Source: Candidatus Moranbacteria bacterium GW2011_GWC2_37_8 (GTDB lineage: Bacteria; Patescibacteriota; Minisyncoccia; Moranbacterales; GWC2-37-73). From it: a stretch of 34,918 nt of DNA. The translations under genes and the position numbers were made by a program. Where the stretch lies: the NCBI GenBank assembly GCA_000992165.1, contig LBTS01000012.1:1-34918 (forward strand). The letters are read 5' to 3'. How positions within the stretch are numbered: position 1 is the stretch's first letter; each line of letters starts with the position of its first letter. The notes beneath the pieces are model-generated. The model was not told the origin of the DNA and ran no database searches. It worked only from the letters and a program-made list of their open reading frames with translations. This document shows, piece by piece, positions 1 to 22,883 of this stretch.

Positions 1-118
1 CGAAATCTCTTGATTCTTAGGTATTTATTCCTAAAAACCCTCAAGAACTTCCTAATTATCATTTTAGAAAAAATCCCAATATGTATTGTATCTCCTACTC
101 TCTTTTTGCTGTTTAGGA

Positions 119-147
119 TTGACTTCTTTTAAATTTTATGCTAAGCT
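119..147 (+). promoter_or_regulatory. Putative sigma70-type promoter of cassette 1 (TTGACT-17-TAAGCT)
   Basis: TTGACT at 119-124, 17-nt spacer, TAAGCT at 142-147; upstream of the 278 ORF and similar to the element at 1242-1271. Confidence 0.5.
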
Positions 148-180
148 TTTATGTTAATGTTCATTGAAAAATAAATCACG

Positions 181-228
181 AACTGGCAGTTGAATAATTT
201 AAATTATTTGATTGTTTGGCTGTCAGTT
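181..228 (+). promoter_or_regulatory. 5' leader stem-loop, copy 1 (AACTGGCAG...CTGTCAGTT)
   Basis: Inverted repeat with one G-U pair; the same stem recurs at 1306-1354 ahead of a different ORF. Confidence 0.65.
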
Positions 229-277
229 TGTGCAAAAATCAACCACCAACTTATTAGTCCAAAGGAGGGATTAAATC

Positions 278-1081
278 ATGTTAACGACATTATGCTCAGT
301 ATGCTTTCAAGATGTTGAAGTGCTGGATTACAATGCGGAAACGGTAGTTCCGAAGAATCACATGAATCATGATATGCAGCACTGCGTTGGCTCTGGATGT
401 GCAGGTCTTACCTGGGAGCAGTTTGAAGTGTTGGCACAGGAGCACTTTGACGAAGACAGTCACAAGCACATGGTGCAGACGGAGAGCATTAATTATGACC
501 TCGAGTGCTACTTCCGTCGTTTCGCAATGTCGCCTGAGCCGATGGCTCTGACGTGGAAACAGGTGCAGCAGCTGAGCATCTACAAGAGGATTCTCCTTCT
601 GGAGCATCTGGTATCGAAGAGGCAGGTTTTTGAAAAACATCTGCCCAATGATTTCGCTGGCTTTGTTGATGGCATCACGAAACTGCTCTCGGGCATAGAT
701 AAGAGAGATTTCTGGTGCGGGGATGAAGATTGCATTTATCCTACGAGAAAAAAGTTAAACAAGGGCGTCATTGAGCGAAACGGAATAAGGGCATTTTTAA
801 CCACACAATCGCATTTCTCTAACGGGGTGAATCCCAGCATGCATTTCGAAGGAAATTTCAACTACTATCCCGAGGAATCTCCTGCTAGGTGCAACACGAG
901 GCCTGAAGATTTTTCCTGCCCGCCTGATGCAGAATTTGAAATAGTGAAAGCGGCTAATGGCGAAATCATCACCCGTATTTTCGTGGACGTAATGCCAGGG
1001 AGTCCCGTGTTGGAATGGATTTTCCCGTCTGCAACAAATGCTTTAGATGAAGTTTACAGGAAATTTATAGCTGGCTTATAA
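278..1081 (+). CDS. Hypothetical protein with N-terminal Cys/His cluster (CSVC...H...H...C...C)
   Basis: 267-aa ORF; AGGAGGG Shine-Dalgarno upstream; terminator downstream; no family recognised. Confidence 0.8.
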   Translation: MLTTLCSVCFQDVEVLDYNAETVVPKNHMNHDMQHCVGSGCAGLTWEQFEVLAQEHFDEDSHKHMVQTESINYDLECYFRRFAMSPEPMALTWKQVQQLSIYKRILLLEHLVSKRQVFEKHLPNDFAGFVDGITKLLSGIDKRDFWCGDEDCIYPTRKKLNKGVIERNGIRAFLTTQSHFSNGVNPSMHFEGNFNYYPEESPARCNTRPEDFSCPPDAEFEIVKAANGEIITRIFVDVMPGSPVLEWIFPSATNALDEVYRKFIAGL

Positions 1082-1116
1082 TAGCCGCTAAAATTTTTTT
1101 TGAAAGAACTGCAATG

Positions 1117-1148
1117 AAACCGCACGCTTGAATAAGGTGCGGTTTTTT
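1117..1148 (+). terminator. Rho-independent terminator
   Basis: AAACCGCAC...GTGCGGTTT stem followed by a T tract. Confidence 0.8.
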
Positions 1149-1241
1149 CATACTTAATTCAACATTAAAGTCCGAACTTCATCCAAGGCTCGGAGCTAGT
1201 TAAAAAAGAGGTTTATAGTGGTCTCTTTTTGCTGTTTTGGC

Positions 1242-1271
1242 TTGACAAAAGTTCAGATTTTGTACTAATCT
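1242..1271 (+). promoter_or_regulatory. Putative promoter of cassette 2 (TTGACA ... TAATCT)
   Basis: TTGACA at 1242-1247 and TAATCT at 1266-1271; preceded by CTCTTTTTGCTGTTT as in cassette 1. Confidence 0.5.
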
Positions 1272-1305
1272 TCATTATCATTGTTGTTTGAAAAAATGAA
1301 TCATG

Positions 1306-1354
1306 AACTGGCAGTTTAACAATTAAAATTATTTTGATTATTCAACTGCCAGTT
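1306..1354 (+). promoter_or_regulatory. 5' leader stem-loop, copy 2 (AACTGGCAGTT...AACTGCCAGTT)
   Basis: Perfect 11-bp inverted repeat, homologous to 181-228. Confidence 0.7.
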
Positions 1355-1396
1355 TGTGGGGGAGTATTATGCGACATTTAACCAAGGGAGAACAGA

Positions 1397-1642
1397 ATGA
1401 ATACACAAATTGTAAAGAGGGGATTTAAAGAAGAACTACAAGATGTTTTCATTGCAAACTTAGCTGAAGGACAAAATGAACATAGCCCTGCTGCCGTTTC
1501 TCACTTCGTTGGGAGCGATGAAGTCACCATTCGCAGCACTAATCAAAGAAGCTATGGGTCGATTCCGATTAATGGAAGGGAAAGCCTAAAGCTTCTGCGC
1601 GACGCCATGATTGAAATCTGCAGGATGGAAGGCATCGAGTAG
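1397..1642 (+). CDS. Hypothetical protein, 81 aa
   Basis: ORF with AAGGGAG Shine-Dalgarno, between the leader stem-loop and a terminator. Confidence 0.7.
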   Translation: MNTQIVKRGFKEELQDVFIANLAEGQNEHSPAAVSHFVGSDEVTIRSTNQRSYGSIPINGRESLKLLRDAMIEICRMEGIE

Positions 1643-1679
1643 TATTTACAAGGTGATATTTAGCATTTTCATGCAGTAG

Positions 1680-1711
1680 CGCACGACCTTCGGGTACGTG
1701 CGTTTTTTTAT
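1680..1711 (+). terminator. Rho-independent terminator
   Basis: CGCACGACC-TTCG-GGTACGTGCG stem followed by T7. Confidence 0.8.
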
Positions 1712-21770: not shown

Positions 21771-22874
21771 TGTCCATGATGAGATACATAGGTAACACTT
21801 CTAAAATTAAGAAGTATGTTATCAAAAAGCCTTTTTGATGCTAGAAATGACGATAGATTAACAAATTGGAAAGGTTTTCATATTGTTGAAGACCTTGTTC
21901 AAATCTATCGTATGGTATACAACTTAGATAAATACTCAACACTATCCAAGAGCGCTAGGAATCGTCTCAAATGGATGGACTACTATCGCCAGTGCGAGAA
22001 TGCATCCAAGACCTGCAGACACTTCGGAATTTCCAGAAAAATCTTCTACAAATGGCATAACATTTTTGACCCAGAAAACTTGTTCTCCTTGGAAGACAAA
22101 AGCAAAGCCCCAATCAACACAAGAAAGCGTGAAATTACCCAGGTCGAAGAAGACAGGGTTGTGGCTCTTAGAAAAAGAAATCTCTGCTATTCAAAGTTTA
22201 AGCTGGAAAAACTCTACCTACAGGAGTATGGCGAGTGGGTGTCTAGCTGGAAGATTCAAAATGTCATCCTAAAACACAATCTCTATCCCAACCGAGTAAG
22301 AACCCAAAGAATCACTAGAAAGCGCTTAAAAGCTAAGAAAAAGGAGCGTATCACTAAACTGCAAAAACAAAAACAAAGCGGATTTCTGCTTTGTCTAGAC
22401 ACTGTTCAACTACGAAGAGAAAATGATAAGCGCTATGTGTTCACAGGAATTGATTTCCATTCCAAGGTTGCATTTGCTAGAATGTACAAAAATATTAATT
22501 CACTCAATGCTGCAGATTTCCTGAATCGCTTGCTGTATCTCGTTAACGGTAACATCCAAAACATCCAGACAGACAATGGATCGGAGTTTCACAGATATTT
22601 TGAAACAGCCTGTGATAAATTAAATCTGAATCATTACTGGTCGCGTCCAAGAACTCCTAAAGACAATGCAGTCAATGAGCGTTTCAATCAGACTCTCCAA
22701 CACGAATTTGTAAACTTTGGCAATTTCACTGCTGATACCGAAAAGTTTAACCTTAAGCTCACTGAATGGCTGATAGAATACAATTTCAGGCGTCCCCATG
22801 AAACCCTAGCTTATGCTACACCCATAAATTTCCATAATTCAATGCAAGTGTTACCTATGTACCCTTCAAGTACA
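21771..22874 (+). mobile_element. IS481-like insertion sequence, apparently complete
   Basis: TGT...ACA ends, roughly 30-bp imperfect TIRs with a 16-bp perfect core (TACATAGGTAACACTT 21785-21800 / AAGTGTTACCTATGTA 22846-22861), flanked by AAACC 5-bp direct repeats (21766-21770, 22875-22879). Confidence 0.85.
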
Positions 22875-22883
22875 AAACCTTGA
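21816..22883 (+). CDS. DDE (rve) transposase, IS481-like
   Basis: LCLDTVQL, IQTDNGSEFHRYF, PKDNAVNERFNQTLQHEF, EYNFRRPHETLAYATP. Confidence 0.92.
   Translation: MLSKSLFDARNDDRLTNWKGFHIVEDLVQIYRMVYNLDKYSTLSKSARNRLKWMDYYRQCENASKTCRHFGISRKIFYKWHNIFDPENLFSLEDKSKAPINTRKREITQVEEDRVVALRKRNLCYSKFKLEKLYLQEYGEWVSSWKIQNVILKHNLYPNRVRTQRITRKRLKAKKKERITKLQKQKQSGFLLCLDTVQLRRENDKRYVFTGIDFHSKVAFARMYKNINSLNAADFLNRLLYLVNGNIQNIQTDNGSEFHRYFETACDKLNLNHYWSRPRTPKDNAVNERFNQTLQHEFVNFGNFTADTEKFNLKLTEWLIEYNFRRPHETLAYATPINFHNSMQVLPMYPSSTKP

Follow-up and report, generated by a model that had tools for sequence, protein, structure and literature searches.

A recurring promoter, box and RNA hairpin ahead of unrelated accessory genes in Moranbacterales

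Two unrelated genes lying in tandem near the end of a contig of Candidatus Moranbacteria bacterium GW2011_GWC2_37_8 would, in the best explanation we can offer, be separate transcription units that use the same recurring chassis, an explanation which, taken as a whole, we hold tentatively, at slightly less than an even chance. The chassis is wider than a single stem: it consists of a sigma70 promoter with an extended −10 element, a box, often a hairpin, a Shine-Dalgarno (SD) sequence and an unrelated gene, and points to a shared, undescribed way of expressing accessory genes. The promoter/box/hairpin architecture, covariation at the RNA level, the unrelated cargo and the presence of nusB with an adjacent RNase III gene are established here. 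The window, i.e., the whole stretch of 34,918 nucleotides that was analysed, is contig C12 of a genome of 826 kb in 48 contigs (own genome, G000) and begins at the contig end; G, C and L numbers label sampled genomes, contigs and loci, respectively.

Both units display the same order of elements, namely, TTGAC, 17–18 nt, TAAGCT or TAATCT, approximately 10 nt, GTTCATT or GTTGTTT with GAAAAA, hairpin, SD sequence, gene and terminator, and everything that the initial annotation had listed was found where it had been placed. In the first unit (all features on the forward strand), promoter 1 (119–147), which was aligned to nine other leaders, has the −35 TTGACT (119–124), a 17-nt spacer and the extended −10 TGC-TAAGCT (139–147). 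Box 1 (159–176), GTTCATT followed by GAAAAATAAAT, was delineated by leader alignment and by comparison with the rRNA leaders of the same family, the boxA region of which (CTTGAAAAATAAAT) it resembles. Leader hairpin 1 (177–232) comprises a 23-bp stem (177–199/210–232) and a 10-nt loop, and is followed by the SD sequence AAAGGAGGGA (261–270), ORF1 (278–1081; 267 aa) and terminator 1 (1116–1148). A terminator-like hairpin with a T tract (1204–1230) lies directly ahead of promoter 2, a layout equal to that at L015, L017 and L020; CTCTTTTT, previously taken for a shared element ahead of copy 2, forms the 3′ arm of this hairpin. Promoter 2 (1242–1271) consists of TTGACA (1242–1247), an 18-nt spacer and TAATCT (1266–1271), and leads into box 2 (1283–1301; GTTGTTT followed by GAAAAAATGAAT, placed by leader alignment and the boxA profile described below), leader hairpin 2 (1301–1359; 16 + 2 + 8 bp with two 1×1 mismatches), the SD sequence AAGGGAG (1384–1390), ORF2 (1397–1642; 81 aa), which is unrelated to ORF1, and terminator 2 (1679–1709; GCGCACGACCTTCGGGTACGTGCG plus a T tract). 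Both terminators fold, as had been proposed for the hairpins at the cassette ends. The 2 copies are 92% identical across 25 nt of the promoter block (99–123/1222–1246), 88% across 43 nt of the leader block (167–209/1292–1334) and 81% in the distal stem arm (207–232/1333–1358), and the blocks following the terminators (1143–1162/1703–1722) share 85% identity. BLAST of leader 1 against the whole own genome produced convincing matches to itself and leader 2 only (77%, 134 nt, E 1e-20). A 19-codon upstream frame with its own SD sequence (1370–1429; MRHLTKGEQNEYTNCKEGI) overlaps the ORF2 start in a different frame, reflecting either translational coupling or chance. Farther along the window, positions 21816–22883 hold a frame judged by eye to be an IS3/integrase-core-like transposase.

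The hairpin is selected as coding-strand RNA. Leaders 1 and 2 fold at −33.6 kcal/mol (z −4.02) and −33.5 kcal/mol (z −3.49), respectively, with 0 of 200 shuffles equal. The initial annotation described a perfect stem in copy 2 and pairing preserved in copy 1 by one G-U substitution; the pairing in copy 1 is indeed kept, albeit by several G-U pairs, and the copy 2 stem carries two upper-stem mismatches at sites that are paired in copy 1. The covariation check suggested there was run on ten aligned leaders and the stem covaries: two-sided changes affect 11 of the 23 stem pairs and 93.9% of the cells are paired, either figure being reached by 0 of 500 shuffles and slid-pairing controls having at most 43% of cells paired, with derivation of the stem from the same sequences biasing the cells-paired figure but not the comparison of two-sided changes with shuffles. 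The hairpin family has 36 G-U pairs against 6 A-C mismatches, and a set of 20 long hairpins unrelated in sequence, the detection of which weighted G-U and A-C equally, has 64 against 20 (p 1.6e-6). This excess of G-U over A-C indicates that pairing is maintained on the coding strand. The 20 unrelated leaders have 22–31 paired positions and the stem in the window 23 bp, that is, at least 20 bp of near-perfect dsRNA with no sequence requirement. Located between the predicted start site and the SD sequence, the hairpin is conserved in pairing and length and differs in sequence among loci; both this freedom and the transcript-start box had been overlooked. A riboswitch was rejected, the stem sequences varying by locus and there being no conserved internal loop. 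Searches of Rfam gave no match at the gathering score in the window, the best sub-threshold matches being chance-like miRNA models.

The search for additional copies that had been recommended was run with a covariance model and recovered at least 8 more, from other genera and families within the order. The exact stem pattern located one extra copy among the 132 genomes of the order, in G111 from another family, with promoter, leader and SD sequence in place; model R1, built from the two window leaders and that of G111, added leaders in G099, G103, G131 (two tandem paralogous units), G118, G087, G116 and G110, once the matches without a promoter (L083, L087–L089, L091 and L093–L099) were discarded. 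Aligned from the −35 element to the stem end, the ten leaders have TTGAC, the extended −10 and a TTATTAGTTCTTT-like block in common. A promoter-plus-leader model (R2), applied order-wide, retrieved sites that keep the promoter and box and differ in the stem, both in the own genome (G000:C9:19407–19532, minus strand) and elsewhere (G103:C49, G114:C6 = G116:C4, G102:C28, G130:C11, G094:C16, G104:C51, G053:C30 and G098:C2); weak matches lacking a convincing hairpin or start (G110:C54, G110:C55b, G094:C28, G095:C77 and G116:C58) were left out. In the own genome, of which 809,563 nt were searched, just three leaders rise above the rest, namely, the window pair and that on C9. The first pass of the genome search scores 26–36 candidates per genome, and thus some copies are missed. 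Plain BLAST of leader 2 within the family returned promoter pieces only, and of the 46 loci matching the exact stem pattern in 85,462 genomes, inspection recognized this leader in the G111 contig alone, the others being chance matches or unrelated palindromic repeats. Plasmid and phage records yielded no match, nor did the literature, outside of subscription papers, yield a description of such a leader. In G131 (L109, G131:C13), the tandem leaders are ~1.2 kb apart and stand ahead of two paralogues of 190 aa and 86 aa; an additional small gene lies in between. The sites in G114 and G116 (L149 and L150), two assemblies of one genus, lie in 3,989 identical nucleotides, representing a shared element or cross-binning, with imperfect repeats of ~150 bp close to either end. 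An orfA-like transposase frame, judged by eye, follows downstream of the C9 cassette (L147).

The box, TAGTTCNTT (GTTCNTT), often followed by GAAAA, is located just past the predicted start site, the mRNA being predicted to begin at or shortly ahead of GTTAGTTC. Searched without the stem, as TTGAC-N14-17-TGNTA-N11-18-TAGTTCNTT, it occurs behind promoters far more often than expected by chance, and does so elsewhere in the phylum as well: there are 32 matches in 27 of the 132 genomes of the order (expected, 1.2; reversed pattern, 2) and 33 in 24 of the 384 genomes of a phylum sample (expected, 3.6; reversed pattern, 6), with the own genome in both samples and the expectations calculated from how densely such promoters and the word occur in the own genome and hence from its composition. 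A long hairpin (score ≥36) follows 18 of the 58 retrieved boxes compared with 12 of 600 random stretches from the same loci (p 3e-13) and 1 of 46 promoters without the box, which links the hairpin to the box. At many box sites, however, the leader is short and runs straight into the SD sequence, and some hairpins stand behind weak boxes. The housekeeping genes PurE and GroES are also found behind the box, which may therefore reflect a start-site preference of some promoters. At L304 (G690:C29), the promoter of a groES-like gene overlaps a CIRCE-like inverted repeat and the predicted transcript opens with the box (TGTTAGTTCATT). At L290 and L305 (G367:C1, same class), leaders with box and long hairpin precede secreted-protein and lipoprotein-like genes without an SD sequence.

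The box is probably a boxA, a probability that we place somewhat above even from sequence comparison. The rRNA leaders of the order carry the boxA [GC]AAC(T/C/A)TT(G/A)A(A/C)AA, and the profile derived from them, which covers 11 positions past TT that the search pattern does not impose, peaks exactly at the box register (−6.5, compared with a mean of −11.1 and sd of 0.8 for other registers, p < 1e-4, and with −10.0, sd 0.7, for shuffles of the same letters). The first window site (win1), G111 and G098 fit the profile well, the fit of many sites is poor and the base following C in GTTCNTT is variable; simple identity of the box with the rRNA boxA was rejected, the likeness being statistical rather than site by site. 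In window copy 1, TTGAAAAATAAAT has an exact 13-nt match in the 16S leader of G006, a member of the same family. The sole homologue of ORF1 found in the order, in G074 (L311, G074:C2), is a separate 134-codon frame with 44% identity in the C-terminal part; its transcript, from a like promoter and without the hairpin, has a predicted start, TTCTCTTTAACATTATC, resembling the E. coli boxA. NusB is encoded in 129 of the 132 genomes of the order, including the own genome (G000:C15:29614–30003), where an RNase III gene (G000:C15:28692–29387; Pfam E 9e-39, dsRNA-binding domain included) is located 130 bp downstream of nusB on the same strand (G000:C15:28692–30075, minus strand). Upstream of 16S, the rRNA leaders of the order (L162–L187) have in common a block close to AATCGCAATTTTTTGCGGTTAGTCC, located downstream of boxA and forming a short hairpin that is conserved.

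The claim that one chassis serves different cargo genes is borne out directly, the clearest pair being cassette 2 of the window (family f1) and the cassette of G111 (family f10), which have leader and terminator in common and encode proteins without alignment; the near-identical terminator occurs nowhere else in the own genome. Searches with ORF1 revealed no family in Pfam, NCBIfam or PHROGs, and ORF2 had no significant family match, its best NCBIfam score being well under the cut-off. Elsewhere, the cargo includes a NUDIX protein (G099), a possible SemiSWEET (G103, with a score below the cut-off), secreted proteins, membrane proteins, PurE, GroES and numerous proteins without a family. By the standards of the own genome, third-position GC is high in ORF1, ORF2 and the C9 gene, ORF1 (GC3 0.52) ranking in the top 2% of the genome's long ORFs. 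In two genera, different cassettes (L115, G087:C15, and L118, G110:C48) stand ahead of a neighbour gene that is 69% identical and, by eye, encodes a dihydrofolate-reductase/RibD-like protein of ~199 aa. The sharing between cassette 2 and G111, the high GC3 of the cargo and the G087/G110 neighbour favour a presumptive exchange of genes within the chassis.

We tentatively propose, at not quite even probability, that a boxA-like Nus-factor site and a long dsRNA hairpin, acting as an RNase III target or stabiliser, form a reusable mRNA leader for accessory genes; Nus binding, cleavage, benefit, exchange route and mobility are what we infer beyond the observations. The sigma70 promoter would produce an mRNA with the boxA-like element (GTTCNTT, often with GAAAA) in its first nucleotides, usually followed in the window's family by an RNA hairpin of 22–31 bp, the SD sequence, one accessory gene and its own terminator. 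NusB, ribosomal protein S10 and other Nus factors would bind the element on the nascent mRNA, as on rRNA, and thereby set the processivity or translation of orphan genes. The hairpin, free in sequence and kept in length and pairing, would be a dsRNA element at which RNase III cuts or which shields the 5′ region of the mRNA, and the chassis would be handed between loci and lineages while its gene is exchanged. That this amounts to a phylum-wide regulon, one that recruits the machinery of rRNA antitermination through a 5′-end boxA and a free-sequence hairpin to express horizontally acquired, changing orphan genes in exchangeable promoter-leader-gene-terminator units, we consider unlikely.

The main rival holds that the hairpin alone is functional, as a 5′-UTR dsRNA stabiliser or RNase III site, the box being only an initial transcribed sequence that strong promoters favour, without any part for Nus factors. 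Its free sequence, kept length and strand-specific pairing are indeed the expectation for RNase III or a decay barrier, RNase III is encoded and many sites match the rRNA boxA weakly; however, the rRNA boxA profile coincides with the box register, the ORF1 homologue has an E. coli-type boxA and no hairpin, and other box sites without a hairpin occur, making this explanation somewhat unlikely, if less so than the phylum-wide regulon. Alternatively, the leader and terminator unit could move or recombine and swap its cargo, with regulation being secondary. Despite unrelated cargo under a common leader and terminator in two families, tandem cassettes in the window and in G131, own-genome cargo atypical in GC and a patchy distribution, the lack of matches in plasmid and phage records and the unlike flanks of related cassettes render such a mobile family improbable. 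Least probable by far is an element acting at the DNA level, in which a dimeric regulator would use paired AACTGNCAGTT palindromes as its operators, or the inverted repeat would be a recombination site: in copy 1 and G111, two changes destroy the second-arm palindrome and RNA pairing survives via G-U, the bias towards G-U over A-C is strong and the stem sequence varies by locus, although each arm is near-palindromic by itself in close copies.

If the proposed boxA reading is right, rRNA-type antitermination signals would serve mRNAs throughout a poorly studied bacterial group, offering a handle on the expression of newly acquired orphan genes in tiny-genome bacteria and a sequence tag to find such genes and their regulon. 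The covarying leader family is absent from Rfam, and the proposed connection between NusB, RNase III and accessory genes is testable.

Among known systems, the lambda PL leader carries nutL and then an RNase III hairpin ahead of N; the order of promoter, boxA, candidate RNase III hairpin, SD sequence and gene is alike, whereas no N or boxB partner is known here and many unrelated genes are involved instead of one. Integron gene cassettes likewise combine unrelated orphan genes with a structured element of variable sequence, which in their case is an attC-type site 3′ of a promoterless gene. Here, by contrast, the hairpin stands between promoter and start codon as coding-strand RNA and each unit has its own promoter and terminator; an attC-type recombination site was rejected, the hairpin being inside the leader 5′ of the gene and a promoter being on each unit. 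In the rRNA leader, boxA and the leader-trailer helix belong to the rrn antitermination complex (PMC10250234), and the present leaders share with it a boxA, or its likeness, near the transcript start followed by long dsRNA of the kind that RNase III recognises, but have no rRNA, a local hairpin for a helix and a protein gene next. Known boxA-regulated mRNAs, with 0–7 sites per genome surveyed, include the suhB 5′ UTR of Enterobacteriaceae, where boxA lies at most 50 nt from the start codon and reduces suhB translation, and a ParE-like toxin gene of Citrobacter koseri (PMC5725501). As in those mRNAs, a boxA-like sequence is located in the 5′ UTR of protein-coding genes of unrelated functions; unlike in them, the box described here occupies the predicted 5′ end, and a long hairpin often comes next.
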